64,000 bases of DNA from Cryptosporangium aurantiacum (lineage in GTDB: Bacteria > Actinomycetota > Actinomycetes > Mycobacteriales > Cryptosporangiaceae): contig NZ_FRCS01000004.1 in assembly GCF_900143005.1 (NCBI RefSeq), positions 124,001 to 188,000 on the forward strand, read 5' to 3'. Position numbers and translations under genes: made by a program. Positions 5,773-58,127 of the stretch are shown in pieces. The notes below the pieces were generated by a model that was given only the letters and a program-made list of their open reading frames with translations, did no database searches and was not told where the DNA came from. How positions within the stretch are numbered: the first letter of the stretch is position 1; each line of letters opens with the position of its first letter.

Positions 5773-5786
5773 CCACGCGACGGCGG

Positions 5787-7289: not shown

Positions 7290-8389
7290 GTGATCACCGC
7301 CCGATCCACGGTCCAGGCACGAGCCTGCTCGCTGAGCGTCACGCCGAGGCCGGGTCGCTCCGGCACCACGATCCTGCCGTCGCTGATCTCCAACCGTTCC
7401 TCGAACAGCGGATACAACCAGTCGAAGTGCTCGACCCAGGGTTCGTACGGGTACGCGGCCGCGAGGTGGACGTGGAGCTCCATCGCGAAGTGCGGCGCGA
7501 GCGTGAGGTGCGCGTGCTCGGCGAGCGCGGCGAGGCGGAGGAACTGGGTGATGCCGCCGATCCGTGGCGCGTCCGGCTGGATGACGTCGACCGCATCGAG
7601 CATTCCGACGTGCTCCGCGACGCTGGTCAGCATCTCGCCGGACGCGATCGGTGTGTCGAGGGCGGCCGCGAGTTCCGCGTGCCCGGCGGCGTCGTACGCG
7701 TCGAGCGGCTCCTCGATCCAGACCAGACCGAACTCCTCGAGCGCACGGCCCATCCGCAGAGCGGTCGGCCGGTCCCACTGCTGATTCGCGTCGACCATCA
7801 GCGGGACGTCGTCCCCCAGGTGTTCGCGGACCGCAGCGACCCGGGCGAGATCGATCGCCGCAGACGGGTGACCCACCTTGATCTTGACGCCGCCGATCCC
7901 GGCCGCGCGGGCCGCGCTGGTGCTCTCGAGCACCTGCTCGATCGGGGCGTGCAGGAACCCGCCGGACGTGTCGTAGCAGCGGACCGAGCCCCGATACGCG
8001 CCGAGCAGCTTCGCCAGCGACAGGCCGGCGCGTTTGGCTTTCAGGTCCCACAGCGCGACGTCGATCGCCGCGATCGCCTGCGTCGACGCGCCACTGCGGC
8101 CCACCGACGCACCGGCCCAGACCAGCTTGGCCCACAGCCGTCCGATGTCGTTCGGATCCTCGCCGATCAGGTCGGGGGCCACCTCGCGGGCGTGGGCGAA
8201 CTGCGCGGGGCCGCCTGCCCGCTTGCTGTAGCTGAAACCGATGCCCTCGTGGCCGTCGTCGGTGCGGACCTCGGCGAACAGGAACGCGACCTCGGCCATC
8301 GGACGTTGGCGCCCGGTGAACACCTTGGCGTCGCTGATCGGGTTCTTCAGCGGCAGCGTCACCGACGACAGCGCGACTTCGCTGATCAT
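7286..8389 (-). CDS. Galactarate/L-talarate dehydratase (enolase superfamily)
   Basis: This 367-residue protein has the enolase-superfamily barrel with the K-x-K base (GVKIKVG), metal ligands in [20 protein letters not shown] and ASGEML, and the His in [13 protein letters not shown]. The residue pattern closely follows the Salmonella talarate/galactarate dehydratase as I recall it, especially [19 protein letters not shown] and [16 protein letters not shown]. It would dehydrate galactarate or L-talarate to 5-keto-4-deoxy-D-glucarate, converging with the neighbouring glucarate dehydratase. Start and stop both overlap neighbours by four bases, indicating coupled translation. Other mandelate-racemase-subgroup acid sugars are possible substrates. 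Confidence 0.86.
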
Positions 8390-9717
8390 GTCCGCACCAC
8401 CAGACAGGGTCGTTTGGGATCGAACGTCCAACCCGGAACCAGGTACTGCATCGCGACCGTGTCGTCGCGCGCCCCGAGCCCGTGCGCCCGGTAGAGCTCG
8501 TGCGCGGCGGCGAGCGCGTCGCGGTCGATCTCGACGCCGAGTCCGGGCTCGTCCGGCACGGTGATCGCACCGTCGCGAATGCGTAGCGGCGCACGCGTGA
8601 GCCGCTGGCCGTCCTGCCAGATCCAATGCGTGTCCAGCGCGGTGATCTCCCCCGGCGCCGCCGCCCCGACGTGCGTGAACATCGCCAGCGACACGTCAAA
8701 ATGGTTGTTGGAGTGCGAGCCCCAGGTCAGGCCGAAGTCGGCACAGAGCTGTGCGACGCGCACCGAGCCGCGCATCGTCCAGAAATGCGGGTCGGCCAGC
8801 GGGATGTCGACGGCCGCACCCCGCACCGCGTGCGCCAGCTGACGCCAGTCGGTCGCGATCATGTTCGTCGCCGTCCGCAGGCCGGTCGCGCGGCGGAACT
8901 CGGCCATCGTCTCCCGGCCGGACAGGTCACCCTCCGCGCCGACCGGGTCCTCGGCGTACGCGAGCACCCCGCCCCGGTCCCGGCACAGCGCGACCGCGTC
9001 GGCGAGCGGCCAGGCACCGTTCGGGTCGATCGTGATCCGCGCGCGCGGGAACCGGGCCGCGAGCTTCTCGACCGCCGCGATCTCCTCGTCGGCCGCGAAC
9101 ACCCCGCCCTTGAGCTTGAAGTCGGCGAACCCGTAGCGCGCGTGTGCGGCCTCGGCGAGCGCGACGATCGCGTCCGGCGTGAGGGCCGGTTCGCGGCGGA
9201 GCCGCTCCCAGTCGTCGGCCGGATCGCTCTCCGCGTGGTACGGCAGGTCGGTCCGGTTCCGGTCCCCCACATAGAACAAATACCCGAGCATGGGGACGCT
9301 CGACCGCTGCTGTCCGTCGCCGAGTAACTCCGCAACCGGCACCCCGAGGTGCTGGCCGAGCAGGTCGAGCAGCGCGGACTCCAGTGCTGTGACCGCGTGA
9401 ACGGTGGTGCGCAGGTCGTAGGTCTGCGAGCCGCGGCCGGTGGCGTCCAGGTGGGCGTAGGTTGCCGCGATGCGGTTGAGCAGGCTGCCGTAGCGGGCGA
9501 TCGGCTCGTTGATCAGGGTCGCACCGGCCTCGTCGATCAGGCGGCGGATCGCCTCACCACCCGGGACCTCGCCGACGCCCACGTTGCCGCCGCTGTCGGT
9601 GACCAGCACGATCGTGCGGGTGAAGAACGGCCCGTGGGCGCCGCTGAGGTTCAGCAGCATGCTGTCGTGCCCGGCAACCGGCACCGCTTCGACGCGCACC
9701 ACCGTAGGGCTGCCCAT
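8386..9717 (-). CDS. gudD: Glucarate dehydratase
   Basis: This 443-residue enolase-superfamily enzyme dehydrates D-glucarate (and usually L-idarate) to 5-keto-4-deoxyglucarate. Diagnostic segments are the N-terminal [30 protein letters not shown] with the catalytic Lys, [25 protein letters not shown] and the catalytic His block [15 protein letters not shown]. The length matches the family. The start shares one base with the kdgD stop (TGATG), and the stop overlaps the next dehydratase as ATGA. Having separate glucarate- and galactarate-specific dehydratases in one transcript means both hexarates feed one downstream route. Confidence 0.95.
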
Positions 9718-10682
9718 CAGGTGACCTTGTCGACCAGCGCGGCGAGGTCGGTCTGCTCGGCCGGGGTCAGGTCGGTCAGCGGTGGACGGACCCGGCCACC
9801 GTTACGTCCGACCGTGTTCAGGCCGGCCTTGATGATCGAGACCGCGTAGCCGCGGGCGCGGTTACGGATGTCCAGGTACGGGATGACGAAGTCGTTGAGC
9901 ATGCCGTAGACGGCGTCGCGATCCTGGGCGCGGACCGCGTCGAAGAAGCGCAGCGCGAACCGGGGCACGAAGTTGTAGAGCGCCGACGAGTACGTGCTGA
10001 CGCCGAGCTGGAGCAGCGGCAGCGCGAACGTCTCCGCGGTCGGCAGCCCTCCGATGTAGAGGAGGCGCTCGCCGACCTTCGCGTAGGTGCGGGTCATCCG
10101 CTCGATGTCCCCGACGCCGTCCTTCAACCCGACCAGGTTCGGGTGCCGGTCGGCCAGCGCGGCGACCGTGACGTCCTCGAGCACCGCGTTACCCCGGCTG
10201 TAGACGACAACCCCGAGGTCGGTCGCTCGGCACACCGCGCTGACGTGCGCGATCAAGCCCTCCTGGCTGGCTTCGGTGAGGTACGGCGGTAACAGCAGGA
10301 GCCCGGCGGCGCCCGCGCGCTGGGCGGCGATCGCCTGTTCCACGGCCTGCGCGGTGCCGCCGGTGGCCGGTGCGACGACCGGCACGCGCGCGCCGACCTC
10401 GTCGACGGCGGCGCGTACCACGGCGTCGATCTCGCCGGACGTGAGCGAGAAACCCTCGCCGGTGCCCCCACCGGCGAACAGGCCGGCGACGCCGAACTCG
10501 GTCTGCCAGGCCAGGTGGTCCCGGTACCGGGGCTCGTCGAACGCGAGCTGTTCGTCGAAGTGCGTCACCGGGAACGAGAGCAGGCCGGTCCGCAGGCGGG
10601 CGGCCAGTTCGGAAGGGGGCATCAGCGTCACGCGGTCACCGTAAGAAGCGAGGTTGATGCCTGTCCAAGAGTGTTTCCGCAT
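9717..10682 (-). CDS. kdgD: 5-dehydro-4-deoxyglucarate dehydratase (KDG dehydratase)
   Basis: This protein of the dihydrodipicolinate-synthase/aldolase superfamily (321 residues) converts 5-keto-4-deoxyglucarate to 2,5-dioxopentanoate, water and CO2. The GGGTGEG loop, the YSRGNAVL segment and the Schiff-base lysine in [11 protein letters not shown] are present. The ATG at 10682 has an AGAGG ribosome site nine bases upstream. An internal ATG at 10622 ([10 protein letters not shown]) fits the usual family start better but has no visible ribosome site, so the first 20 residues are uncertain. The gene lies 12 bp after the LysR gene on the same strand. Confidence 0.93.
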
Positions 10683-10694
10683 TACGTGATACCT

Positions 10695-11582
10695 CTAGGG
10701 CATTGTTTCTCGCAGTACTCGGAGCGCTCGCCCGAGCGCCGGGTTGCGGGAGTGCCGGGGCCAGAGCAGGTGCAGCTCGACCGGCTCGGCGACCGGAGTG
10801 GCCAGCGGGACGAAAGCGACGTCCGGGATGCGCAGCAGCGTGGCCGACGCGGGGACGAACGCGACGCCCCGGCGGGCGGCGACCAGCCAGAGCATCGTCA
10901 GGATCTGGCTGACCGTGTGCACGACACGTTCCTGGGCCAGCGGCACCATGCTGACGACCAGGTCGTAGAAGTACCGGGCCTTCTGCTGGGAGTGGAAGAT
11001 CAGCGGTTCGGTGGCGAGGTCGGCCGGTTCCACGGCGCGTTCGAGCGTGGTCAGCGGATGGTTCACCGGTACCGCGAGCAGCAGGGCCTCGCGGTGCAGC
11101 AGCACGGAGTCGAACAGCTCGGCGTCGAACGGCGGCCGGGCCAGGCCCAGGTCGAGATCGTCGTTGGCGAGCGCCGCGACCTGTTCGCGGGTGACCATCT
11201 CGAACAGGTCGATCTGTACCTCGGGCAGCTGCCGCTCGAGCTCGTTGAGCAGCTGGCCGAGGATGCCGAACGTCGACGCCGCGGTGAAGCCGAGCCGCAG
11301 CAGGCCACGGGAGCCGGACGAGACCCGCTGGGCGATCTCCGGGGCCGCCTCGGCGAGCGCGAGGATGCGCCGCGCCTCCCGGAGGAACGCCTCACCGGCC
11401 GGGGTCAGCGACACGCGCCGGTTGTCGCGGTCGAGCAGGCGCGCCCCGACCGTGGCCTCCAGTTTCTGGATCTGCCTGCTCAGCGGCGGCTGCGTCATCC
11501 GTAATCGCGCGGCGGCCCGGCCGAAGTGCAGCTCCTCGGCCACGGCGACGAGACCCCGGAGTTGCTCCAGTGTGTACGCCAT
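10695..11582 (-). CDS. LysR-family regulator of the hexarate operon
   Basis: This 295-residue LysR protein has the N-terminal winged helix (LEQLRGLVAVAEELHFGRAAARL, then TQPPLSRQIQKLE) and a periplasmic-binding-like effector domain. It is the first gene of the minus-strand catabolic operon, 12 bp before kdgD, and divergent from tctC across 108 bp. A LysR protein in this position normally binds the shared promoter region and responds to the imported substrate or a pathway intermediate. Glucarate, galactarate or 5-keto-4-deoxyglucarate are therefore likely effectors, by inference. Its co-transcription with the enzymes would make positive autoregulation possible. Confidence 0.9.
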   Translation of the reverse strand: MAYTLEQLRGLVAVAEELHFGRAAARLRMTQPPLSRQIQKLEATVGARLLDRDNRRVSLTPAGEAFLREARRILALAEAAPEIAQRVSSGSRGLLRLGFTAASTFGILGQLLNELERQLPEVQIDLFEMVTREQVAALANDDLDLGLARPPFDAELFDSVLLHREALLLAVPVNHPLTTLERAVEPADLATEPLIFHSQQKARYFYDLVVSMVPLAQERVVHTVSQILTMLWLVAARRGVAFVPASATLLRIPDVAFVPLATPVAEPVELHLLWPRHSRNPALGRALRVLRETMP

Positions 11583-11690
11583 GCTGTGAAGGTATCAATC
11601 AATGCAGTAAGGGAGTTAGACACGCATAAATGCCTGCCCATAGGCTGCCCGAATCCTGAACCGGAACTCCCCATCGTTGAGGAGAAGCCC
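11583..11690. promoter_or_regulatory. Divergent promoter region between lysR operon and tctCBA
   Basis: This 108-bp spacer is the most A/T-rich stretch nearby and must carry both promoters. A GAGGAG ribosome site sits just before the tctC ATG at 11691. A short inverted GCAT/ATGC pair lies around 11622-11631. I cannot confidently assign LysR boxes or -35/-10 elements by eye. Confidence 0.55.
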
Positions 11691-12689
11691 ATGTCTACGA
11701 GGGTTCGGGCGGTGGCAGCGGGCATCACGCTCGTTCTCGTCGCCGCGCTGTCCGGGTGCGGCGGCAACCTGGGTGACGACGGTTCCGACGCGGCCGGTTC
11801 CTATCCGGAGCGTGCGGTGACGTTATTCGTCGGCCAGGACGCCGGTGGCAGCACCGACCTGATCGCCAGGGCCCTCGCCGACGAGGTGAGCGAGGACCTC
11901 GGGAAGCCGGTCACGGTCGTCAACCGGCCCGGGGCCAACGGCGGAGTGGCCGCCAAGCAGCTCGCCGCGGCGAAGCCCGACGGTTACACCGTGATGATCT
12001 TCGTCGGCTCGCTCGCGTACATCACCCCGCTGGCCGTCGCGCCGGAGGAGGCCGTCGACATCACGCAGTACGAGGTCATCACCGGGATCTCCCAGGACGA
12101 CTTCGTGCTCGTGGCCCATCCGAAGACCGGCTTCACCACGGTCAAGGACATCCAGGACGCCAAGCGGCCGATCAAGTACGCGACGACCGGGGTGGGCACC
12201 GGAAGCCAGCTGACCCAGGCCCTGCTGTTCGCGCAGTCGAAGGTGCAGGCCACGGCGGTGCCGTTCGACGGCGGCGCGCCGGCGCTGGCCGCGGTGCTCG
12301 GTGGCCAGGTCGACGTCGCCTCGATCCAGCTCGGCGAGGCGCAGCCCCAGATCAAGGCCGGAAAGCTCACGCCGCTGGTGACGTTCGCCGCGAAGCGCCC
12401 CGCGTACCTGCCGGACAGCCCGACCGCGGTCGAGGCCGGGTTCAACGTGCCGGTGCAGCAGTCGCGGGCGATCGTGGCGCCGGACGGGACGCCGCAGGAG
12501 GTCATCGACCGGCTGCGGAACGCGTTCGCGAAGGCGTTCGAGTCGGAGAAGTACCAGGCGTTCAACGCCGAGCGGCTGCTCACGCCGAACGAGGTGGAGG
12601 GGCCGACGCTGCTGGAGCAGTGGACGAAGGCGCGCGAGACGTACCGAGGGCTCGTCGAGCAGTACAAGATCGACTTGGGTGGCGAGTGA
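11691..12689 (+). CDS. tctC: Tripartite tricarboxylate transporter substrate-binding lipoprotein
   Basis: This 332-residue protein belongs to the TctC/Bug family of extracytoplasmic solute receptors. It has a signal with LSGC lipobox (Cys23), and the family landmarks YPERAVTLFVGQDAGGSTDLIARALA, VVNRPGANGGVAAKQLA, KPDGYTVMI, GGAPALAAVLGGQVD and the C-terminal APDGTPQEVIDRLR. Such receptors bind dicarboxylic or tricarboxylic acids and present them to TctAB. The ATG at 11691 with GAGGAG upstream is chosen. Located divergently from the hexarate LysR operon, it most likely captures glucarate/galactarate. The stop overlaps the tctB GTG start. Confidence 0.92.
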   Translation: MSTRVRAVAAGITLVLVAALSGCGGNLGDDGSDAAGSYPERAVTLFVGQDAGGSTDLIARALADEVSEDLGKPVTVVNRPGANGGVAAKQLAAAKPDGYTVMIFVGSLAYITPLAVAPEEAVDITQYEVITGISQDDFVLVAHPKTGFTTVKDIQDAKRPIKYATTGVGTGSQLTQALLFAQSKVQATAVPFDGGAPALAAVLGGQVDVASIQLGEAQPQIKAGKLTPLVTFAAKRPAYLPDSPTAVEAGFNVPVQQSRAIVAPDGTPQEVIDRLRNAFAKAFESEKYQAFNAERLLTPNEVEGPTLLEQWTKARETYRGLVEQYKIDLGGE

Positions 12690-13285
12690 CACCGCCCGAA
12701 GACGCACCACCGCCGGAGGCGGCGCTGCCCGGTTCGGGCGCGCCGCCGTCCGAGACCGCACCACCGCCAGCGGCTGCCGGGTCGGAGGCCGCTGGGCCGG
12801 AGGCCGCTGGGCCGGAGGCCGCTGGGCCGGAGGCCGCTGGGCCGGAGGCCGCTGGGCCGGTCGCGAACGTGGTGGCAGCGGCCGTCGTGGTCGTCCTCGG
12901 CGCCGCCGCCTTCGCCGGAGCGCTGACCCTCGGCATGGGCAGCGCCGCCGAGCCCGGCCCCGGCCTCTGGCCCGCCCTGGTCAGCGCCGCGCTGGTCGTG
13001 CTCGGCCTGGTGCTCGCGCTCCGGGCCCGCCGGACCGACGACGCCGAACGCTTCAGCCGCACGAGCCTGCTGGTCATCGCTGCGGTGGCGACGATGGCCG
13101 TCTTCGTCGCGGTGATCGGCGTCGTCGGTTTCGAGATTCCGGCCGCGGTGCTGGCGTTCGTCTGGCTGCGGTTCCTCGGCCGGGAGAGCTGGCGCATGTC
13201 GATCGTCGTCAGCCTCGCTCTCACGGTCGTGTTCTACGCGCTGTTCGTCGGCGCGCTCGACGTCACCATTCCGCACCTGTTCTGA
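12686..13285 (+). CDS. tctB: Tripartite tricarboxylate transporter small membrane subunit
   Basis: This 199-residue protein starts at GTG 12686, overlapping the tctC stop (GTGA). The first 60 residues are a Pro/Ala/Glu-rich, probably disordered cytoplasmic tail containing five exact EAAGP units. Four hydrophobic helices follow, beginning VANVVAAAVVVVLGAAAFAG, which is the TctB topology. The MGSAAEPGPGLWPALVSAALVVLGL segment is the family hallmark. The long repetitive N-terminal tail is not typical of TctB as I know it. The protein would form the four-helix subunit that pairs with TctA. Confidence 0.85.
   Translation: MTPPEDAPPPEAALPGSGAPPSETAPPPAAAGSEAAGPEAAGPEAAGPEAAGPEAAGPVANVVAAAVVVVLGAAAFAGALTLGMGSAAEPGPGLWPALVSAALVVLGLVLALRARRTDDAERFSRTSLLVIAAVATMAVFVAVIGVVGFEIPAAVLAFVWLRFLGRESWRMSIVVSLALTVVFYALFVGALDVTIPHLF
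12784..12858 (+). repeat. Five exact tandem copies of a 15-bp unit inside tctB
   Basis: The unit GGAGGCCGCTGGGCC is repeated five times without mismatch. Because 15 is a multiple of three, it encodes the pentapeptide EAAGP five times in the N-terminal tail of TctB. Perfect identity between copies indicates recent slippage expansion. Confidence 0.95.
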
Positions 13286-13297
13286 CCGGGGTAACCA

Positions 13298-14806
13298 GTG
13301 GACGCGCTGCTCGACGGCTTCACCGTCGTCCTCGAGCCGAAGAACCTGCTGTACTGCTTCATCGGCGTCGTCGTCGGCATGCTCATCGGCGTCCTACCGG
13401 GCCTAGGCCCGGCCGCCACCATCGCGATCCTGCTGCCGCTGACGTTCGGCCTAGAGCCGGTGACCGCGATCATTCTGCTGGCGGGCATCTTCTACGGCGC
13501 CCAGTACGGCGGCACGATCACGTCCGTGTTGTTACGCCTGCCCGGCGAGGCGTCGTCGGTCGTCACGGTCTTCGACGGGCACGCGCTCGCCCGGCAGGGC
13601 AGAGCCGGCACCGCGCTCGGCATCGCGGCGATCGGGTCGTTCGTCGGCGGCACGATGTCGGTCGTCGCGCTCAGCCTGGTCGCGCCGTTCGTCGCCGCGT
13701 TCGCGCTGGACTTCGGGCCACCCGAGTACACCGCGCTGGCGCTGCTCGGCATCCTGCTGGTGTCCACGATCTCCACCGGCGGCAAGCTGAAGGCCCTGGT
13801 GGCCGCCGTGCTCGGCCTGCTGCTGGCCGTCGTCGGCCGGGACGGTTTCACCAGCGCCGAGCGGTTCACGTTCGGGAACCTGTCGCTCGCCGACGGGCTG
13901 GACTTCGTCCCGATCGCAATGGGGCTGTTCGGTCTCGGGGAGATCCTCTACAACCTCGAGGAACGGCATCGGGCGGTGAGCCCGCCGACGACCGTGGCCA
14001 ACGTGTGGCCGAGCCGCGCCGACCTGCGGCAGGCCAGCGGCGCGATCGGCCGGGGTGGTGTCCTGGGGTTCGTTCTCGGCATCCTGCCCGGCGGCGGCGC
14101 GGTGCTCTCGTCGCTCGCCGCGTACGCGGTGGAGAAACGCCGCTCCCGCCACCCCGAGCGCTTCGGGCACGGGGCGATCGAGGGCGTCGCCGCACCCGAG
14201 ACCGCGAACAACGCCGCTGCCACGTCGTCGTTCATCCCGTTGCTCTCGCTCGGCCTCCCGGCCAACGCGACGATGGCCGTCATCTTCGGTGCGCTGCTGA
14301 TCCAGGGCGTCACGCCGGGGCCGCAGCTGGTCACCGAGCAGCCCGAGCTGTTCTGGGGCGTCATCAACTCGATGTACCTGGGCAACGTGCTGCTGCTGAT
14401 CATGAGCATCCCGCTGGTCGGGCTGTTCGTGCGCATCCTGCGGGTCCGGCCGGCGATCCTGGCGCCGATCACCACGCTGATCACGCTCGTCGGGGCCTAC
14501 ACGGTCAACAACAGCGTCTTCGACATCGGGCTGGTCATCGTGTTCGGCGTCATCGGCTACCTGATGAAGAAGTTCGGCTTCGACCCCGGCCCGCTGGTGC
14601 TGGCGTTCGTGCTCGGGTCGCTGCTGGAGACGTCGCTACGCCGGTCGTTGCTGCTCTTCGACGGTGATCCGACCGGGTTCCTGACCCGCCCGATCTCGGG
14701 GACGCTGTTCGCGCTCTTCCTCGCCGTGGCGCTGCTGCCGCTCGGCCGAGCTGTGGCGCGCCGGCGACGGTCCGACCAGGCTCCGCGGGAACCGATCGAG
14801 CGCTAA
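13298..14806 (+). CDS. tctA: Tripartite tricarboxylate transporter large membrane subunit
   Basis: This 502-residue polytopic membrane protein carries both TctA signature blocks. These are GVLPGLGPAATIAILLPLTF followed by FYGAQYGGTITSVLLRLPGE in the first half, and the inverted counterpart FVLGILPGGGAVLSSLAAY with ETANNAAATSSFIPLLSLGLP in the second. TctA is the ion-coupled translocating subunit working with TctB and the TctC receptor. It starts at GTG 13298, 12 bp after tctB. Its TAA stop lies at the left edge of a 22-bp palindrome that probably controls the next gene. Hexarate import is inferred from the divergent catabolic operon. Confidence 0.94.
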   Translation: MDALLDGFTVVLEPKNLLYCFIGVVVGMLIGVLPGLGPAATIAILLPLTFGLEPVTAIILLAGIFYGAQYGGTITSVLLRLPGEASSVVTVFDGHALARQGRAGTALGIAAIGSFVGGTMSVVALSLVAPFVAAFALDFGPPEYTALALLGILLVSTISTGGKLKALVAAVLGLLLAVVGRDGFTSAERFTFGNLSLADGLDFVPIAMGLFGLGEILYNLEERHRAVSPPTTVANVWPSRADLRQASGAIGRGGVLGFVLGILPGGGAVLSSLAAYAVEKRRSRHPERFGHGAIEGVAAPETANNAAATSSFIPLLSLGLPANATMAVIFGALLIQGVTPGPQLVTEQPELFWGVINSMYLGNVLLLIMSIPLVGLFVRILRVRPAILAPITTLITLVGAYTVNNSVFDIGLVIVFGVIGYLMKKFGFDPGPLVLAFVLGSLLETSLRRSLLLFDGDPTGFLTRPISGTLFALFLAVALLPLGRAVARRRRSDQAPREPIER

Positions 14807-14827
14807 ACTACACCGTACCGTGTAGTT
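14806..14827. promoter_or_regulatory. Palindromic TetR-type operator
   Basis: The arms AACTACAC and GTGTAGTT are perfect inverted repeats separated by six bases. The site starts at the last base of the tctA stop and ends 22 bp before the TetR start codon, which is the expected place for an autoregulatory operator. Confidence 0.7.
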
Positions 14828-14849
14828 ATCAAGTGTAAGCTGATCCACA

Positions 14850-15500
14850 ATGAGCACTGTCGGCACGGAGAAAGCGGTGCGCGAGGGGTCACCGGCAAAA
14901 CGGACCGCGATCCTCGCCGCCGCCCGCGAACTCTTCCTGCGTCACGGGGTGGACCGCGTCAGCATGGACGCGGTCGCGGCTCGGGCCACAGTGTCGAAAC
15001 GCACCGTGTACGACTACTTCGGCGACAAACGCCGGCTCTTCCTGGCGATCCTCTCGGACGCCTCCGAGTCGATGAACGCCTCGGTGCGCCGAGCGCTCGA
15101 CGATCACCTCTCCGACGACGCGGGCATCACCACCGTGCCCCAGCTGGAGAAGGCGCTCACCGGGTTCGCGATCGACCTCGGCACGACGATCGTCGGCTCG
15201 GCCGACTACACCGCGGCCTTCGCGCTCGTCGCCCAGCAGCGCTGGCAGGAGCCGACGGCCGAGGACGACGTCATGACCGCGGCAGCGGAGGAGGCGTTCA
15301 CCGAACGCCTCGCCCACTTCGTCGCCGTCGGTCTCCTGGACGCGGACGACCCGCGGCTGGCCACCAACCACTTCAACGCGCTGACCGTGCTGCTCGCGTA
15401 CCACGATCAGCCGGACCCCGCGAAGGCCGACCCGGCGCGCGTTCGCCGGACCATGGTCGACGGGGTCCGCGCGTTCATCCGCGCGTACGGCGCCCGCTAG
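14850..15500 (+). CDS. TetR-family transcriptional regulator
   Basis: This 216-residue protein has a canonical TetR N-terminal domain: AKRTAILAAARELFLRHGVDRVSMDAVAARATVSKRTVYDYFGDKRRLF spans the three-helix DNA-binding unit, and the C-terminal part is all-helical ligand domain (AefR-like length). The palindrome 22 bp upstream suggests self-repression. It is convergent with the SDR gene, and the two stop codons overlap in the bases CTAG. Its targets could be itself, the tct genes or the neighbouring SDR/P450 pair, but the latter has its own TetR and different operator, so local autoregulation is the safest reading. Confidence 0.92.
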   Translation: MSTVGTEKAVREGSPAKRTAILAAARELFLRHGVDRVSMDAVAARATVSKRTVYDYFGDKRRLFLAILSDASESMNASVRRALDDHLSDDAGITTVPQLEKALTGFAIDLGTTIVGSADYTAAFALVAQQRWQEPTAEDDVMTAAAEEAFTERLAHFVAVGLLDADDPRLATNHFNALTVLLAYHDQPDPAKADPARVRRTMVDGVRAFIRAYGAR

Positions 15501-16315
15501 CGCTTGTTCAGCAGGCCCGCGTCCACCGGGACGACGGTGCCGGTGACGTACCGCGCGTCGTCGGAGACGAGCCAGGCGATCGCGGCGGAGATGTCCTCCG
15601 GCTCGACCAGGTCGACGGGCATCGCGTTGGTCAGCGCGTTGGCGAGCGCCGGGGCGCGTTCGAGGATGGCCTGGAGGTCACCGTCGGCGGCCATCGGCGT
15701 GCGCACAGCGGTCGGTGCGACGCTGTTCACCCGGATCTTGAACGGCGCGAGGAAGTTCGCCCACGACCGCATCAGCCCGATCACACCGTGCTTGGCCGCG
15801 GTGTAGCCGAGGAATCCCGCGGTCGGGATGCCGACGCCGACCAGGCCGCCGGTCGAGCTGGTCAGCACGATCGATCCGCCCTGGTTGCGTTCGAGCATCG
15901 ACGGGATCGCGACCCGGCCGGTGTTCCACACACCGGTCAGGTTGACGGCCACGACCTCCTCCCACTCCTGCTCCTCGGAGACCGGGGCGCCACCCGCACC
16001 GATGCCCGCGTTGGCCAGGACGATGTCCACCGGCCCTAACGCGGCGACTCCTTCCTCGAACGCCTTGCGCAGCCCGGTGATGTCCCGGACGTCGGCCTGG
16101 CGGGCGATGATCCGCCGGTCGAGCGCCTCGACCGCGCGGACGGTCTCCTCGAGCTCCTCGGCGGTGCCCATCGGATAGCGGACGGATTCCAGCTGGGAAC
16201 AGATGTCGACCGCGATGATGTCCGCGCCCTCCTGCGCCAGCCGGATCGCGTGGCTACGACCCTGGCCGCGGGCGGCTCCGGTGATGAAGGCGACCTTGCC
16301 CTCGAGCTTTCCCAT
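15497..16315 (-). CDS. Mycofactocin-coupled SDR-family oxidoreductase
   Basis: This 272-residue short-chain dehydrogenase has the nucleotide-binding motif TGAARGQG (12-19), NAG at about 102-104, Ser153/154 and the YTAAK catalytic pair Tyr171-Lys175. The RGQGRSHAIRLAQEGADIIAVDIC segment and the insertion after it are the signature of the mycofactocin-coupled subgroup. That subgroup keeps NAD tightly bound and passes electrons to the peptide-derived cofactor mycofactocin. It follows the P450 gene by 17 bp on the same strand, so the pair probably hydroxylates and then oxidises an alcohol. No mycofactocin biosynthesis gene is in the window. Confidence 0.88.
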   Translation of the reverse strand: MGKLEGKVAFITGAARGQGRSHAIRLAQEGADIIAVDICSQLESVRYPMGTAEELEETVRAVEALDRRIIARQADVRDITGLRKAFEEGVAALGPVDIVLANAGIGAGGAPVSEEQEWEEVVAVNLTGVWNTGRVAIPSMLERNQGGSIVLTSSTGGLVGVGIPTAGFLGYTAAKHGVIGLMRSWANFLAPFKIRVNSVAPTAVRTPMAADGDLQAILERAPALANALTNAMPVDLVEPEDISAAIAWLVSDDARYVTGTVVPVDAGLLNKR

Positions 16316-50695: not shown

Positions 50696-53395
50696 TCAGC
50701 GGCTGTCCGAGCCGCCCTCCTGAACCACGGTGGCGCGGGCCGCTTCCAGCCGCGCCACCGGCACGCGGAACGGCGAGCACGACACGTAATCCAGCCCGAC
50801 CTTGTTGAAGAAGTGCACCGAATCCGGGTCGCCGCCGTGTTCACCGCAGACGCCGACCTTGAGGTCCGGACGGGTCGCCCGGCCCTTCTCGGTGCCGATC
50901 CGCACCAGCTCGCCGACGCCGTCCGCGTCGATCGTCTCGAACGGGCTGACGCCGAAGATCCCGACCTCCAGGTACGTGGAGAAGAACGCCGCCTCCACGT
51001 CGTCGCGGGAGAAGCCCCACGTCGTCTGGGTCAGGTCGTTGGTGCCGAACGAGAAGAATTGCGCGGCCTCGGCGATCTGGTCGGCGGTGAGCGCCGCACG
51101 GGGCAACTCGATCATCGTCCCGATCAGGATCTGCAGGTCGACGCCGGTCAGCTCGGCGACCTCCGCGAGGACCTTCTTCGCGTCGGCCTGGATGATCTCC
51201 AGCTCCTGGACCGACCCGACCAGCGGGATCATGATCTCCGGCTTCGGGTCCTTGCCGAGCTTGACCAGCTGGGCCGCCGCCTCCGCGATCGCCCGCACCT
51301 GGAGGTCGAACAGGCCCGGCACGACCAGCCCGAGCCGGACGCCACGCAGACCCAGCATCGGGTTCTGCTCGTGCAGCCGGTGGACGGCCTGCATGAGCCG
51401 CAGGTCGTTCTCGTTCTTCTCGCCCCGGGACTCGGCCAGCGCCACCCGGACCGACAGCTCGGTGATGTTCGGCAGGAACTCGTGCAGCGGCGGGTCGAGC
51501 AGCCGGATCGTCGTCGGCAACCCGTCCATCGCGGTGAGCAACTGGAGGAAGTCCCAGCGCTGCAACGGAAGCAGTGCCTCCAACGCAGCGTCCCTCTGCT
51601 CCTCGTCCTCGGCCAGGATCAGCCGCTCGACGTGCTGACGCCGCTCGCCGAGGAACATGTGCTCGGTCCGGCACAGCCCGATGCCCTCGGCACCGAACCG
51701 GCGTGCCCGTTCCGCGTCCTCGGCGGTGTCGGCGTTGGCCCGGACGCCCATCCGGCGGGTGCCGTCCGCGTGCTTCATGATGCGGTCGACGGCCTGGACC
51801 AAGTCGTCCGGATTCTCGATCTGACCTTCGAAGTACTCGACGACCGGCGAATCCACCACCGGTACCTCACCGAGGTAGACGCGCCCGGTCGAGCCGTCGA
51901 TCGAGATCACGTCGCCCTCGTGCACCTCGGTGCCGTCCGGGGCGGTGAGGAACCGCCGCTTCGTGTTGACCTGCAGCTCCTCGGCACCACAGACACAGGT
52001 CTTGCCCATGCCACGCGCGACCACCGCCGCGTGTGAGGTCTTGCCACCGCGGCTGGTCAGGATGCCCTCGGCGGCGATCATGCCGTTCAGGTCATCCGGG
52101 TTGGTCTCCCGGCGAACCAGGATGACCTTCTCCCCCGACCGCGACCACTTGACCGCGGTGTACGAGTCGAAGACCGCCTTGCCGACCGCCGCACCCGGCG
52201 ACGCGGACATACCCCGGCCGAGCTGGTGCGTCTTCGCCGACGTGTCGAACTGCGGGAACATCAGGTGGACGAGTTGCTCACCGGTGACCCGCTGGATCGC
52301 CTCGTCCAGATCGATGACGCCTTCGTCGACCAGCTGCGACGCGATCCGGAACGCGGCGGCCGCGGTGCGCTTCCCGACCCGGGTCTGCAGCATCCAGAGC
52401 TGACCGGCTTCGATCGTGAACTCGATGTCACACAGGTCGCGGTAGTGCCCCTCCAGCGTCGCCATGATCTCGAGGAGGCGGTCGTAGGAGGTCTTGTCGA
52501 TCTTCTCCAGGTCCTGGAGCGGCACCGTGTTCCGGATGCCCGCGACGACGTCCTCACCCTGGGCGTTCTGCAGGTAGTCGCCGTAGACGCCCTGCTCGCC
52601 GGTGCCCGGGTCGCGGGTGAACGCCACGCCGGTGCCGGAGTCCATGCCCATGTTGCCGAAGACCATCGCGACAACGTTGACCGCGGTACCGAGATCGGCC
52701 GGGATGCGCTCCTGCCGCCGGTACAGCACGGCGCGGTCGGAGTTCCAGGACTCGAACACCGCGTTGATCGCCGCGGTCATCTGCTCCCGCGGGTCCTGCG
52801 GGAAGTCCGCCCCGGTGTGCTCCCGCACGATGCGCTTGTAGACGTCGACCAGCTGCCGTAAGTCGTCGGCGTCCAGATCGAGGTCGTTGTTCGTGCCCTT
52901 CGCGCGCTTGATCTCTTCCAGCGCGTCCTCGAAGGCCTCGCCACCGATGTTCTGGACGGTCTTGCCGAACATCTGGATCAGCCGGCGGTAGGAGTCCCAG
53001 GCGAACCGCTCGTTGTCGGCCTGGCGGGCCAGGCCCTCGACCGACCGGTCGTTGAGGCCGACGTTGAGGACGGTCTCCATCATCCCGGGCATCGAGAACT
53101 TCGCTCCGGACCGGACGCTGACCAGCAGCGGGTCGTCCGGGTCGCCGAGCGTCTTGCCGCGGGCCTTCTCCAGCGTCGCCAGGTGGGTCGCGATCTCGTC
53201 GTCGAGGCCGTCCGGGGTGGCGCCGGTGTCGAGGTAGATCGTGCACGCCTCGGTGGTGATCGTGAACCCGGGAGGCACCGGCAGCCCGAGGTTGGTCATC
53301 TCGGCGAGGTTGGCGCCCTTGCCGCCGAGGAGGTCCTTCAGCTCTTTATTGCCCTCGGCGAAGTCGTAGACGTACTTGGTGCGATCGTCCTTCAA
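50696..53395 (-). CDS. ppdK: Pyruvate, phosphate dikinase
   Basis: This 899-residue enzyme interconverts pyruvate, ATP and Pi with phosphoenolpyruvate, AMP and PPi. The N-terminal nucleotide-binding domain starts YVYDFAEGNKELKDLLGGKG and includes VSVRSGAKFSMPGMMETVLN. The swivelling His domain has LTSRGGKTSHAAVVARGMGK with the phospho-accepting His. The PEP/pyruvate barrel has GIGLCRTEHMF and the proton-donor Cys in VGVCGEHGGDP. Length and order match bacterial PPDK. It allows gluconeogenic flux from pyruvate, useful when growing on acids such as glucarate. It is divergent from the kinase-receptor gene. Confidence 0.97.
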   Translation of the reverse strand: MKDDRTKYVYDFAEGNKELKDLLGGKGANLAEMTNLGLPVPPGFTITTEACTIYLDTGATPDGLDDEIATHLATLEKARGKTLGDPDDPLLVSVRSGAKFSMPGMMETVLNVGLNDRSVEGLARQADNERFAWDSYRRLIQMFGKTVQNIGGEAFEDALEEIKRAKGTNNDLDLDADDLRQLVDVYKRIVREHTGADFPQDPREQMTAAINAVFESWNSDRAVLYRRQERIPADLGTAVNVVAMVFGNMGMDSGTGVAFTRDPGTGEQGVYGDYLQNAQGEDVVAGIRNTVPLQDLEKIDKTSYDRLLEIMATLEGHYRDLCDIEFTIEAGQLWMLQTRVGKRTAAAAFRIASQLVDEGVIDLDEAIQRVTGEQLVHLMFPQFDTSAKTHQLGRGMSASPGAAVGKAVFDSYTAVKWSRSGEKVILVRRETNPDDLNGMIAAEGILTSRGGKTSHAAVVARGMGKTCVCGAEELQVNTKRRFLTAPDGTEVHEGDVISIDGSTGRVYLGEVPVVDSPVVEYFEGQIENPDDLVQAVDRIMKHADGTRRMGVRANADTAEDAERARRFGAEGIGLCRTEHMFLGERRQHVERLILAEDEEQRDAALEALLPLQRWDFLQLLTAMDGLPTTIRLLDPPLHEFLPNITELSVRVALAESRGEKNENDLRLMQAVHRLHEQNPMLGLRGVRLGLVVPGLFDLQVRAIAEAAAQLVKLGKDPKPEIMIPLVGSVQELEIIQADAKKVLAEVAELTGVDLQILIGTMIELPRAALTADQIAEAAQFFSFGTNDLTQTTWGFSRDDVEAAFFSTYLEVGIFGVSPFETIDADGVGELVRIGTEKGRATRPDLKVGVCGEHGGDPDSVHFFNKVGLDYVSCSPFRVPVARLEAARATVVQEGGSDSR

Positions 53396-53737
53396 CGCGA
53401 CCTCCCTGGGTGTCCGTCAACCGGTGAGTTACCGAGCGCGCCGTCGCGGAGAGTCACGGGTTCAGGCACGAATCGTTCTCCCTCGTCACCGGCGCTGGGA
53501 TGGCCAGAGGTTAATGAGGCCCTCCCCCTGCTGGTGCCCGTTGTGAGCAGACGCACCCGAGTTGGTCAGACTGTTCCGATTCAGACGCGACGGGTTACCC
53601 GGAAACCTCTAAAACCGCACGTGAGAAGGGTCGCACGTAGTCTCTCCGACATCGAGCGGTAACCCGTTGAGCGGAAGCCTGGCGGAGGATCGCTACGCTG
53701 CGCGCGGGATCGAGCGGCCCATCGGAGAGAGGTACGC
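53396..53737. promoter_or_regulatory. Divergent intergenic region between ppdK and the receptor kinase gene
   Basis: These 342 bp hold both promoters. ACGGGTTACC at 53590-53599 is inverted as GGTAACCCGT at 53658-53667, and GCACGT occurs at 53617 and 53632 between the arms. A GGAGAGAGG ribosome site precedes the GTG at 53738. I see no small gene here. Confidence 0.5.
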
Positions 53738-56545
53738 GTGAGCACGGCGCAGCCCCTTCGGAAGAACGATCCGCGACAACTCGGTCGGTATCGCCTGACC
53801 GGACGCCTGGGTTCCGGCGGGATGGGAATCGTCTACGCCGGCCTCGACGAGCTGCCGGACGGACGCGAGCGCAAGGTCGCGGTGAAGGTCATCCACCCGC
53901 ACCTGGCGGATGCCCCCGAATTCCGGACCCGGTTCCGGTCCGAGGCGACCCTCGCGGCCCGGGTGGCCCGCTTCAGCACGGCTGCTGTCCTCGATGTGGA
54001 CGTCGAGAGCGAGCAGCCGTTCCTCGTCACGGAGTTCGTCGACGGACCGACGCTGCAGGAGGTCGTCGAGGATCAGGGACCGCTGACCGGTGGGGCGCTC
54101 GACGCGGTGGCGATCGGGATCGCGACCGCGCTGGTGGCGATCCACGAAGCCGGCATCGTGCACCGCGACCTGAAGCCGAGCAACGTGATCCTGTCCCGGT
54201 TCGGGCCGCGGGTGATCGACTTCGGCATCGCCAGGGCCGCCGACGCGATGAGCGGGCTGACGAGCGGGGCGATCGGGTCGCCGCCGTACATGGCACCGGA
54301 ACAGTTCCGCGGCGAGGCGATCACCCCGGCGACCGACATCCACGCGTGGGGCGCGGCGGTGTGCTTCGCCGGCACCGGCAAACCGCCGTTCGGGATCGGC
54401 GCACCCGAGGTGATGCTCTACCGGACGCTGGAGCAGGCGCCGGAGCTGTCCGCGCTGGACGAGACGCTGCGCGACCTCGCCGGCGCGGCGCTGCGCAAGG
54501 CGCCCGGCGAGCGGCCCAGCGCGCGTGACCTGCTCGCGGCGCTGACGCTGCGGCGCCCGGACGCCGCACCGTCGATCCCGGTGCCCCCGCTGCCCGCGGG
54601 CGCGTCCGCGGCGGCCGGAACCGCCGGAGCCGGAACCACCGGGGCCGGGGCCGGAACCGCCGGGGCCGGAACCGCCGGGGCCGGGGACGCCGGGGCCGGG
54701 GACGCCGGGGTGACCGACGTCGGCGCCGGCGATACCACCGTCCGGGTGGCGTCCGACGGATCCCCGCAGCCTCCGATCCCGGCGAAGAAGACCCGGCGGC
54801 GCACGGTCGTGCTCCGGACGGCCGCCGCCGCGGTGGTCCTCGCGGTGCTGGCCGGCGCCGCGGTCCTCTGGGTGGGCCAACGCGGCTCGGACACCCAAAG
54901 GTCGGACTCGTCCCCACCGGCCGCGGCCTCCGACAGCACCGTCCGGCAGTTCTCCGCCGACGACGACGCCACCGGCCCCGCCCCGGCCGTCCCCGGTGCG
55001 GTGCGCGGCGGCACCGTCGAGCTCTACGCCGCAGCGGACTTCTGGGAACTCGACCCGGTCCAGAACCAGTACACCGACGGCATGATGGCCAGCTCGCGGC
55101 TGCTGGCCCGCACGCTCACCGCGTACCGGGAGAACGGCTCGAAGGAGCCGACGCTGGTCGGTGACCTCGCCACCGACACCGGCCGCAGCACGGACGGCGG
55201 CCGCACCTGGGAGTTCACGATCCGGTCTGGGGTGACGTTCGCGGACGGCACGCCGGTGACCGCGCAGGACGTCGCACACGGCATCGCCCGGGCGTTCAGC
55301 ACCCGGGCGAAGGGAATGACGTACCTGCAGGAGTGGCTGACCGGCCGGACCGACTTCCGCGCCGTCTACTCCGGCCCGACCAGCGACGCACCGTACCCAC
55401 CCGGCGTCGAGGCGCCCAACGCGCAGACCCTCCGGCTGCGGTTCCCCGCGCCGCACCCGGATCTTCCGGCCGTCGCCGCGCTGCCGTTCACCGCGGCGGT
55501 CGCGGCGACCTGGAAGCCGAGGGAGAACGACCCGGTCCCGATCACCGGCCCCTACCGAATCGCCTCGGTCGCACCCGACCGCACGCTGACGCTCACCCGG
55601 AACCCGGCCTGGAAGCCCGAGACCGACCCTGTGCGCACCAACTACCCGGACCGGTACGTCGTCCGCTTTGGGGCGGAACGCACGGACGTCACCCGCCTGA
55701 TGATGCGCGACGAGGCCCCGGCCGGCGTCCAGCTCAGCACGATCGACTCGAGCCAGGCCGACGAGGCCTACCAGATGGGGCTCGACAACCGGCTCGTGGA
55801 CGGCGTCGGATCCGGCCACCGCGACCTCTGCTTCAATACCCAGCGCGTCCCGGACGTCAAGCAGCGCCGGGCACTGAGCCTGGCGTTCAACCCGGAGTCG
55901 GCACTGGCCGCGCTCGGTGGCAACTACGTGGGTGACTTCACGACCAGCCTGCTCTCGCCCCGCTTACCGGGGTATCCGGAGGACCAGTCCCGCGCCCTGC
56001 GCTCCGGTAACCCCGCTGCCGCGTCCGAGGCGCTGGACGGTGCCGAGGTGACGCTGGTGTTCGCCCACAAGGACACTGGCGAACACCGGCGGCTGGCCAC
56101 GGCCGTCGTCACGGCGTTCGCCCGCGCCGGCGTCACCGTCGTGCCTCGCCCGGTGAAGGAGAACTTCCTGGCGGCGATCGGACGCGCGGACAACCCGTAC
56201 GACCTCTACCTCTGCGAGTGGACGCCGGACTACCTGGACGGCAACGCGATGCTGCCGCACCTCTACTCCAGCCGAGTCCTGCGCACCGACGGCAACACGA
56301 ACATGAGCTACCTGCGCGTCGAGGCCGTCGACGCCGAGCTGGACCGGATCGCTGCGCTGCCCGACCGCACCCGGGCCGCGCGGGAGTACGCGGCGTTCGC
56401 CAACCGCCTCCGCACCGAGTGGGCGCCCGCGATCCCGTTCTTCGACCAGCGGCGCTGGACGCTGACCGGCTCGAACGTCCGCGGAGTGTTCGTCAGCAAG
56501 CTCTGGGCGGTGCCCGACCTGGCGCGGGTCTGGGTGCAGGCCTGA
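53738..56545 (+). CDS. Membrane Ser/Thr protein kinase fused to an extracellular family-5 solute-binding domain
   Basis: This 935-residue protein has a full PknB-type kinase at its N-terminus. The glycine loop is GSGGMGIV (25-32), the ATP lysine is Lys50 (VAVKV), the catalytic loop is HRDLKPSN (142-149), and DFG (161-163) and APE (186-188) are intact. A Gly/Ala/Thr-rich linker with AGAGT-type repeats (about 285-335), a basic KKTRRR stop and one membrane helix (about 357-379) follow. From about residue 420 the outside part is a complete OppA/DppA-type SBP_bac_5 domain (GGTVELYAAADFWELDPVQN, WEFTIRSGVTFADGTPVTAQ, GPYRIASV, LYLCEWTPDYLDGNAML). It should sense a peptide, sugar or metal-chelate outside and phosphorylate proteins inside. 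Confidence 0.93.
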   Translation: MSTAQPLRKNDPRQLGRYRLTGRLGSGGMGIVYAGLDELPDGRERKVAVKVIHPHLADAPEFRTRFRSEATLAARVARFSTAAVLDVDVESEQPFLVTEFVDGPTLQEVVEDQGPLTGGALDAVAIGIATALVAIHEAGIVHRDLKPSNVILSRFGPRVIDFGIARAADAMSGLTSGAIGSPPYMAPEQFRGEAITPATDIHAWGAAVCFAGTGKPPFGIGAPEVMLYRTLEQAPELSALDETLRDLAGAALRKAPGERPSARDLLAALTLRRPDAAPSIPVPPLPAGASAAAGTAGAGTTGAGAGTAGAGTAGAGDAGAGDAGVTDVGAGDTTVRVASDGSPQPPIPAKKTRRRTVVLRTAAAAVVLAVLAGAAVLWVGQRGSDTQRSDSSPPAAASDSTVRQFSADDDATGPAPAVPGAVRGGTVELYAAADFWELDPVQNQYTDGMMASSRLLARTLTAYRENGSKEPTLVGDLATDTGRSTDGGRTWEFTIRSGVTFADGTPVTAQDVAHGIARAFSTRAKGMTYLQEWLTGRTDFRAVYSGPTSDAPYPPGVEAPNAQTLRLRFPAPHPDLPAVAALPFTAAVAATWKPRENDPVPITGPYRIASVAPDRTLTLTRNPAWKPETDPVRTNYPDRYVVRFGAERTDVTRLMMRDEAPAGVQLSTIDSSQADEAYQMGLDNRLVDGVGSGHRDLCFNTQRVPDVKQRRALSLAFNPESALAALGGNYVGDFTTSLLSPRLPGYPEDQSRALRSGNPAAASEALDGAEVTLVFAHKDTGEHRRLATAVVTAFARAGVTVVPRPVKENFLAAIGRADNPYDLYLCEWTPDYLDGNAMLPHLYSSRVLRTDGNTNMSYLRVEAVDAELDRIAALPDRTRAAREYAAFANRLRTEWAPAIPFFDQRRWTLTGSNVRGVFVSKLWAVPDLARVWVQA

Positions 56546-56559
56546 TCGGGCGATACCGT

Positions 56560-56874
56560 ATGCGGGTGACAACCGTGTACAAAGTTCTCCGCGCCGACGA
56601 GTGGGCGGCCGCGCAGGCCACCGAGCAGTACGAGGGGTCTCCGGACGACCTGCGCGACGGCTTCGTCCACCTCTCCACCGCCACCCAGCTGCCCGGGACG
56701 CTCGACCGGCACTTCGGCGGCGAGACCGGGCTGATGTTGCTGGCCGTCGACGCGGAGACGCTCGGCGACGCGCTGCGGTGGGAGACGAGCACCGGCGGCG
56801 AGGCGTACCCGCACTACTACGGCGCGCTGCCGATGTCCGCCGTCACCGAGGCCACCCCGGTCCGCTCGGAGTAA
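56560..56874 (+). CDS. DUF952 family protein
   Basis: This 104-residue protein matches DUF952, with TVYKVLRADEWAAAQATEQY, DGFVHLSTATQLPGTLDRHF and the end YPHYYGALPMSAV. Relatives are small cytosolic proteins, sometimes annotated as glutathione S-transferase-like, with no proven activity. It lies 14 bp after the receptor kinase gene and may be co-transcribed. The ATG at 56560 gives the family start. Confidence 0.85.
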   Translation: MRVTTVYKVLRADEWAAAQATEQYEGSPDDLRDGFVHLSTATQLPGTLDRHFGGETGLMLLAVDAETLGDALRWETSTGGEAYPHYYGALPMSAVTEATPVRSE

Positions 56875-56901
56875 CCCACACCTCGATCACCGGGAACTCA
56901 C

Positions 56902-56919: not shown

Positions 56920-56984
56920 CCGGACGCCGTTGCCGAGTTCGTTCGCGAGCATCGCCGGACATGCCGAGGCAATCGGAGGTCCCG

Positions 56985-58127
56985 ATGTGGAAGCGCAGCC
57001 TGCTCGCGGTCGTCGTCCTGTTGGCCGCAGCGTGCTCCGGTGACGGCGCTGCCGACGACACGCGCTCGGCGCCGACCACCGGTCACACGCACGCCAACGC
57101 ACCGTCACCCGAACCGTTGCGGCCGGGCGAGCGGTTCCTGACGCTCGAGATGCCGGAGCCCTACTCGCCGGCCGCGCCGAGCGGCGGTACCGACGACTAC
57201 CGCTGCTTCCTCGTCGACCCGAAGCTGACCGCCGAGACCTTCCTGACCGGTAGTCAGTTCATGCCTGAGAACACCGATCTCGTCCACCACGCGATCTTCT
57301 TCCGGCTGAAGCCTGCCGACCTGTCGAAAGCCCACAAAGCCGACGCGGCGACGCCGGGCGTGGGATGGACCTGCTTCGGTAACGCCGGTATCGACGCCGC
57401 CGGCTGGGTCGCGTCCTGGGCGCCGGGCGCCAACGAGAAGCTGCTCGACCCGACGCTGGGTTTCCCCCTGCCGCCGGGCACCCAACTCGTCATGCAGGTC
57501 CACTACAACCTGCTCGGCGTGGACGGTGCCGCGCCCTCGGACCAGAGCTCGATCCGGCTGCGCCTCAACGACGACGTCTCCGGGATGAAGCGGCTGGGCG
57601 CCAGGCTGGTCGCGGCGCCGGTGGAGCTGCCCTGCACCGCCGCGGAATCCGGTCCGCTCTGCGATCGGAAGGCCGCCGTCGCCGACGTCACGAAGCGGTT
57701 CGGCCCGAAGGCGCCGCGCCGGGTGGCCGGCCTCAACCAGCTCTGCCGCAGCGGTAAGCCACCCGTCGCCGGCGCGACCCAGCAGTGCGACTTCCGTGCC
57801 AAGAAGAACGCCACGGTGTACGCGGCGGCCGGGCACATGCACCTGCTCGGCCGGTCGATCAAGATCGAGCTCAACCCCGGCACGCCGACCGCGAAGACGC
57901 TGCTCGACGTCCCGGCCTACGATTTCGACGACCAGTCGATCCGGCCGCTCGCGACGCCCGTCCAGGTCAAGGCCGGCGACACGTACCGCGTCACGTGCAC
58001 GCACGACGCGAGCCTCCGCGGACAGTTGCCGCAGCTGAAGGGCCAGCCCGCGCGGTACGTGGTCTGGGGCGAGGGCACCAGCGACGAGATGTGCCTCGGC
58101 ATGGTGCTCCAGGTGCCGACTACATAG
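56985..58127 (+). CDS. Lipoprotein resembling copper type II ascorbate-dependent monooxygenases
   Basis: This 380-residue exported protein has a lipoprotein signal (LLAAAC, Cys17) and a perfect GGAGGT ribosome site before the ATG at 56985. The body resembles the peptidylglycine/dopamine-type copper monooxygenase fold. Copper-ligand-like motifs are the HH pair in DLVHHAIFF, the His in QLVMQVHYNLLG, the HxH in AAAGHMHLLG, TCTHD, and a Met in the final DEMCLGMV. Several cysteines could form the conserved disulfides. The substrate is unknown. It is immediately upstream of a two-component system whose promoter repeats begin two bases after its stop. Confidence 0.75.
   Translation: MWKRSLLAVVVLLAAACSGDGAADDTRSAPTTGHTHANAPSPEPLRPGERFLTLEMPEPYSPAAPSGGTDDYRCFLVDPKLTAETFLTGSQFMPENTDLVHHAIFFRLKPADLSKAHKADAATPGVGWTCFGNAGIDAAGWVASWAPGANEKLLDPTLGFPLPPGTQLVMQVHYNLLGVDGAAPSDQSSIRLRLNDDVSGMKRLGARLVAAPVELPCTAAESGPLCDRKAAVADVTKRFGPKAPRRVAGLNQLCRSGKPPVAGATQQCDFRAKKNATVYAAAGHMHLLGRSIKIELNPGTPTAKTLLDVPAYDFDDQSIRPLATPVQVKAGDTYRVTCTHDASLRGQLPQLKGQPARYVVWGEGTSDEMCLGMVLQVPTT

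Follow-up and report, generated by a model that had tools for sequence, protein, structure and literature searches.

What does a complete binding protein of the importer type do when it sits in the same chain as a Ser/Thr kinase, with no importer alongside? The question is raised by a gene in a 64,000-nucleotide stretch of the Cryptosporangium aurantiacum genome (contig NZ_FRCS01000004.1, positions 124,001 to 188,000; hereafter the window), where an open reading frame (ORF) of 935 codons at 53738-56545 (+) encodes a Hanks-type kinase, a membrane helix and a solute-binding protein (SBP) domain of the family SBP_bac_5. The reading that we favour, and hold to be reasonably probable, is that this receptor Ser/Thr kinase has captured an oligopeptide-type SBP whose closure on a ligand gates the kinase, so that the availability of peptides is reported without import.

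The ORF starts with GTG and contains no internal stop, and its five segments (kinase, linker, helix, joint, and SBP) all have a third-position G+C content of 0.89-0.97, so that the frame looks coding throughout. Pfam places Pkinase at residues 18-267 (E 3.6e-34) and SBP_bac_5 at residues 473-845 (E 2.5e-47; 162.2 bits against a cut-off of 32.4), and finds no PASTA domain at E 0.001. The 22 NCBIfam families matched by the receptor, all below their cut-offs, are kinases and NikA-like and other SBPs; the Stk1 model NF033483 gives 201 bits for a cut-off of 450. The original prediction, made from the sequence alone, had presupposed an unbroken frame between the two halves, which proves correct in all five genomes of the host family that were compared, the window's own included: a search with the SBP half returned joined frames of 960, 922, 970, 961, and 920 residues between stops. 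An assembly or annotation artefact joining two neighbouring genes is ruled out by this continuous frame; since the same architecture also occurs in 11 further sequences of other families, we give such an artefact practically no credence. The gene is confirmed as a genuine single-chain fusion of Pkinase, helix, and SBP_bac_5.

The catalytic Lys, Glu, HRD, Asn, DFG, and APE elements are all intact, as predicted, both in the receptor and in the 16 fusions of this type that we found (16/16). The single membrane helix expected between the halves was called from hydropathy alone. Outside the kinase domain, only residues 362-380 are strongly hydrophobic; a weaker segment (117-135) also passes the threshold, lies within the kinase domain, and was not counted as a membrane helix. 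Six Lys or Arg residues occur in the 15 positions before the helix and two in the 15 after it, which argues that the kinase is inside and the SBP outside. The same pattern is seen in eight other fusions scanned, with 3-7 such residues before and 1-2 after. The overall plan is that of the single-pass Hanks-type receptor kinases PknB, Stk1, and PrkC, which, unlike the receptor, carry PASTA domains. Part of the linker between kinase and helix is encoded by imperfect GC-rich tandem repeats (54613-54710).

The ectodomain extends from about residue 411 to residue 935, some 525 residues, in line with the complete domain of about 500 residues that had been predicted; solute-binding domains of the Glu/Gln type are about half the size of this family-5 type. 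A structure model built on an alignment of 66 SBP halves reached a mean predicted local distance difference test score (pLDDT) of 94.9 and a predicted template modelling score of 0.91. Its top Foldseek matches are 2wop and 2wok (TM 0.85), and VIA-align superposes it on 2wok with a Z of 38.6 and 2.8 Å across 510 residues; searches by sequence likewise rank 2wok first (E 5.8e-34 for the sequence alone, 3.7e-151 with a profile). These entries are arginine and bradykinin complexes of oligopeptide-binding protein 2 from the clavulanic acid cluster, and OppA2 of S. clavuligerus (2wok, 2wol, 2wop) is thus the closest solved structure by both sequence and fold. Unlike the receptor, the deposited OppA2 chain (562 residues) has no kinase and matches the SBP part only. 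According to the model, the ectodomain is a complete two-lobed SBP fold and includes the Asp of the peptide-amine site, which bears out, at the level of the fold, the binding pocket that the original prediction had presupposed.

This residue, D831, lies in a WTPDY motif that aligns with WGADF in 2wok and WVGDY in MppA, so that W-x-x-D is common to the receptor and OppA2. In DppA, the R383/D436 pair is described as contacting the carboxyl and amino groups of the dipeptide, respectively, and the charge-reversal double mutant R383D+D436R as binding no dipeptide (PMC12136057). Judging from the common motif, D831 would be the positional equivalent of D436, the one residue of the pair to which the comparison extends. 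The amine-site Asp is kept in 71/72 free relatives, in 9/16 fusions, and in all five host-family fusions. We infer that the ligand is a peptide or an amino-acid-like compound. Of the candidates proposed earlier, nickel is less likely than peptides, because the nearest solved relatives in sequence and fold bind oligopeptides and the Asp is kept.

The N-terminal end of the ectodomain suggests where it came from. A loose lipobox pattern was matched in 69/72 free relatives, and those of the host genus have a stretch such as NSDGPAPEVPGAKKGGT about 30 residues past the lipobox. In the receptor, where no lipoprotein signal or lipobox was found and that position is taken by the kinase and helix, the latter is followed by DDDATGPAPAVPGAVRGGT, which resembles this start, so that the mature SBP seems to have been kept almost from its beginning. 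It looks as if kinase, linker, and helix have replaced the signal peptide and lipobox of a lipoprotein of the ATP-binding cassette (ABC) importer type. The idea of an importer receptor without an importer alongside also stands: in a genome search for one permease family, BPD_transp_1, none of the 111 matches falls within the window; on this contig, about 163 kb separate the window edge from the closest match. The genome has 14 other SBP_bac_5 matches. One free paralogue, 36% identical to the sensor (G000:C5), has oligopeptide-type permease and ATPase genes as its neighbours. A second free lipoprotein paralogue, 35% identical (G000:C14:51554-53092; L055:5046-6791), stands clear of any BPD_transp_1 match: the single one listed for its contig is about 114 kb away. 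This paralogue is possibly also part of a sensor.

The proposed search for further kinase-SBP_bac_5 fusions yielded at least 16 distinct ones within the single phylum surveyed, 11 of them outside the host family. In the class survey (296 genomes), 84 genomes had an SBP match at 1e-80, and 16 matches lay in frames of at least 780 residues, three of these with a kinase. Seven of nine long frames read in the G233 family (35 genomes) include a kinase, spread over five genomes of which two carry a pair of neighbouring fusions, and both genomes with a match at 1e-120 in the Streptomyces-type family (297 genomes) hold fusions. Matches were found in 695 plasmid records, of which three were examined: two, from Streptomyces, hold fusions and the third (L049) a free SBP. 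Frames below 780 residues were excluded as presumably too short for both domains, and at most four candidates per genome at E 1e-80 (class) or five at E 1e-120 (Streptomyces-type family) were scored, so that the counts are lower bounds.

The two plasmid fusions (L047:5977-8787, WP_168720682.1; L048:5992-8649, WP_329468636.1) share with the receptor the domain order kinase, helix, SBP_bac_5. They differ from it in being only 32-33% identical, in falling on another branch of both trees described below, and in having lost the amine-site Asp. Both of these annotated public relatives are named only as transporter parts ("ABC transporter substrate-binding protein"). Paired fusions occur in a family other than the host's: L202 has two (5743-8733 and 12684-15923) with a third kinase frame between them (10501-12603), and L203 has two close together (6036-9278 and 9445-12519). 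In each pair, the amine-site Asp is missing from one of the two fusions.

In a tree of SBPs (88 rows), the fusions fall into four separate groups, and well-supported branches force four changes. A single origin of the fusions is ruled out in a test on a quick tree, with a log-likelihood lower by 191.8 and an approximately unbiased test p of 2.9e-103; this test compared 9 fused with 59 free SBPs and left out one long-branched free row (L098). In a kinase tree (104 rows), the five host-family fusions lie amid 86 kinases without SBP_bac_5, and the other 11 fusions lie apart from them, grouped with two other kinases; this tree alone needs three changes, two of them forced. Both trees contain several branches flagged as long, and the rows of the kinase tree were chosen mostly because they resemble the kinases of the fusions. 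On the trees, the Streptomyces-type group would be separate from the host-family fusions. If the changes are gains, the SBP tree reads as four events, and two would be the conservative count; in principle, the changes might instead reflect loss of the kinase half. The trees suggest that importer receptors have probably been captured by kinases more than once.

Kinases related to that of the receptor were also collected by a scan of the genome contigs with the full alignment, seeded by two kinase motifs. It gave 80 loci, none of which holds a kinase-SBP_bac_5 frame, and these were therefore used only as kinase relatives. Ten of them, picked by hand, contain no SBP_bac_5; seven have kinase-type matches only, and one has a sub-threshold lectin-like match. 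The differing partner domains of these ten suggest that this kinase subfamily swaps ectodomains freely. The remaining two of the ten, of the same subfamily, have other partners: in Sphaerimonospora mesophila (L118:3-2315) the kinase is joined to glycosyl hydrolase family 6 (E 6.5e-51), and in Nonomuraea sediminis (L128:5992-9474) to nSTAND1 and beta-propeller (WD40-like) repeats.

Kinase-SBP fusions as such have been known since 2005, when Krupa and Srinivasan reported a kinase with an extracellular solute-binding protein in Streptomyces coelicolor (gi|21223285; PMC1262709); the family-5 SBP is the new element here. By the description in that source, the S. coelicolor protein resembles the receptor in joining a Hanks-type kinase and a periplasmic-type solute-binding domain in one chain, and differs from it in being of the Glu/Gln-binding rather than the oligopeptide type (PMC1262709). 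A whole family-5 SBP is a rare kind of kinase sensor, but the receptor is not the first kinase-SBP fusion. In mycobacteria and corynebacteria, the amino-acid SBP of the GlnH-GlnX-PknG system is proposed to activate the kinase through a membrane protein, a model that, as its authors write, would give SBPs a new role (PMC6069109); the system is also treated in PMC9769921. As there, an SBP outside would control a Ser/Thr kinase inside and match metabolism to nutrients; whereas that system, as described, consists of three proteins (an amino-acid SBP lipoprotein, the membrane protein GlnX, and a soluble kinase), the receptor is all one chain. As we read a table of 2026 that lists the SBP genes of siderophore gene clusters, Pkinase is the partner domain of 5/55 SBP_bac_3 and 0/221 SBP_bac_5 genes (PMC13293324). 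Among the open-licence papers listed by literature searches, none deals with a kinase-SBP_bac_5 fusion, and the text of PMC2877116 has no solute-binding terms.

In the mechanism that we propose, an extracellular peptide or amino-acid-like ligand would bind the ectodomain, with its amino group held by D831, and would close the two lobes of the SBP. Lobe closure would alter how the membrane helices are spaced or how they dimerise, and this change, probably by way of dimerisation, would switch autophosphorylation of the kinase, so that the availability of peptides might be signalled to the cytoplasm without import. We infer the gating by ligand and all downstream targets of the kinase. Activation of bacterial Ser/Thr kinases is called an outstanding question in PMC6069109, and ligand control of a Hanks-type kinase should be directly testable here, because the binding protein is of a well-studied type with few likely ligands and D831 offers a one-residue control.

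Several observations weigh against this mechanism. The full-length structure model, from an alignment of six rows, was poor (mean pLDDT 51.9) and was not used, and strict mechanical coupling is not obvious, since the linker is long, of low complexity, and variable. The amine-site Asp is absent in 7/16 fusions, all in groups outside the host family, so that peptide binding is no constant feature of the architecture. The sub-threshold NCBIfam SBP matches are led by models of the nickel-binding NikA (39.9 bits against a cut-off of 600), and the structures matched by the ectodomain also include binders of nickel, haem, opines, and sialic acid. Finally, the lack of a permease is in itself no sign of signalling, as the free paralogue on G000:C14 lacks one too.

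One of these points would suit an ectodomain that binds no small ligand and instead docks onto cell-wall material or another protein, the kinase being controlled by its localisation, as has been proposed for PASTA kinases. The loss of the Asp in seven fusions fits such docking, as do the faster divergence of the SBP half than of the kinase half in the same proteins and the presence of the murein-peptide binders MppA and DppE among the structure matches; the host family, however, keeps both the Asp and the whole two-lobed fold, and we regard docking as unlikely there. Import might also have been retained, with the tethered SBP feeding an Opp/Dpp-type permease in trans while the kinase senses or adjusts transport. 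In favour of this, the genome has many other SBP_bac_5 and BPD_transp_1 matches, and its free paralogues are 35-36% identical to the sensor, one of them also standing apart from any permease match. With the lipobox replaced by kinase and helix and the nearest permease match on the contig far outside the window, we nevertheless see little chance that this is so.

The remaining alternative concerns the neighbouring gene at 50696-53395, which we take from family knowledge to be ppdK, encoding pyruvate phosphate dikinase (PPDK). The kinase might specifically control this gene product in place of the PPDK regulatory protein, extracellular peptides switching PPDK by Ser/Thr phosphorylation. The divergent arrangement, noted in the original prediction, is kept in all five host-family genomes, and PF03618, the family of the PPDK regulatory protein, is absent from all five despite the presence of PPDK. 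Flanks of up to about 1.5 kb, shorter near contig ends, were checked at 30 of the 47 ppdK matches; one of the 30 is the window's own, and the 29 loci outside the host family showed no kinase match, so that the pairing is specific to the host family in that sample. But the other neighbours of the receptor are conserved too, and in such a broadly syntenic region the pair may be kept passively, which weakens the argument from adjacency; PF03618, moreover, is found in only 3/14 control genomes and missing from 11/14, so that genomes lacking it are common. The inverted repeat that had been predicted between the two genes does exist, with 10-bp arms at 53590-53599 and 53658-53667, but is not significant: arms as long arise in 23/300 dinucleotide shuffles, and by eye it recurs in one of four aligned relatives (L052, with one mismatch) and not in L050, L051, or L053. 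We reject a shared operator on these grounds, the repeat being near chance. Specific control of ppdK is therefore improbable, if slightly less so than retained import, and PPDK as a target of the kinase is a guess from the neighbourhood.

Beyond peptide gating of this one receptor, we offer a broader proposal only tentatively, as we doubt that all of it will hold: actinomycetes may repeatedly, on as many as four occasions in the SBP tree, have made importer receptors into peptide-sensing receptor kinases, some lineages keeping the peptide site and others losing the Asp. The host-family member would then report extracellular peptides, be they a nutrient, muropeptides, or a developmental signal, and might act on central carbon metabolism through the adjacent ppdK. 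If this is true, a hidden class of receptors may span those for peptides or pheromones and those for other ligands. The apparently repeated fusions suggest a general route from importer receptors to signalling receptors.

The features of the locus are collected in Table 1. Compared with the four other host-family genomes, identity is 57-86% for the kinase, 37-68% for the SBP, and 81-94% for ppdK; of the three, the sensor half changes fastest. A scan of 53300-56900 for sigma-70-like promoters and for terminators, which covers no other promoter types, detected neither.

Table 1 Features of the receptor locus, in window coordinates.
Feature	Position	Strand	Basis or remark
Receptor gene (kinase, membrane helix, SBP_bac_5), 935 residues	53738..56545	+	ORF and Pfam; joined frame in 5/5 host-family genomes
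Likely ribosome-binding site, GGAGAGAGG	53724..53732	+	just 5' of the GTG; read from the sequence
Cytoplasmic Hanks-type kinase domain, residues 18-267	53789..54538	+	K50, E69, HRD 142-144, N149, DFG 161-163, APE 186-188
Ala/Gly/Thr-rich juxtamembrane linker, partly imperfect repeats	54587..54802	+	length differs among orthologues
Single membrane helix, residues 362-380, preceded by KKTRRR (inside)	54821..54877	+	hydropathy
Joint resembling the mature N-terminus of SBP lipoproteins, DDDATGPAPAVPGAVRGGT	54938..55027	+	comparison with free relatives
Extracytoplasmic SBP ectodomain, residues 411-935 (SBP_bac_5 core 473-845, 55154-56272)	54968..56542	+	Pfam, model, structure matches
D831 codon; the residue aligns with the Asp of W-x-x-D in OppA2 and MppA	56228..56230	+	alignment
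ppdK (pyruvate phosphate dikinase, presumed), divergent neighbour, not part of the receptor	50696..53395	-	identity to homologues elsewhere in the class reaches 76%
DUF952 gene, 14 nt downstream of the receptor	56560..56874	+	4/4 host-genus genomes; start codon chosen by hand

The DUF952 gene is a possible co-transcribed partner of the receptor; the 11.5-kb contig from the host family's other genus did not show it. Downstream of it, the product of 56982-58124, for which the compared stretches of four relatives gave no match at 1e-8, is likely a lipoprotein with a copper type II monooxygenase C-terminal domain.

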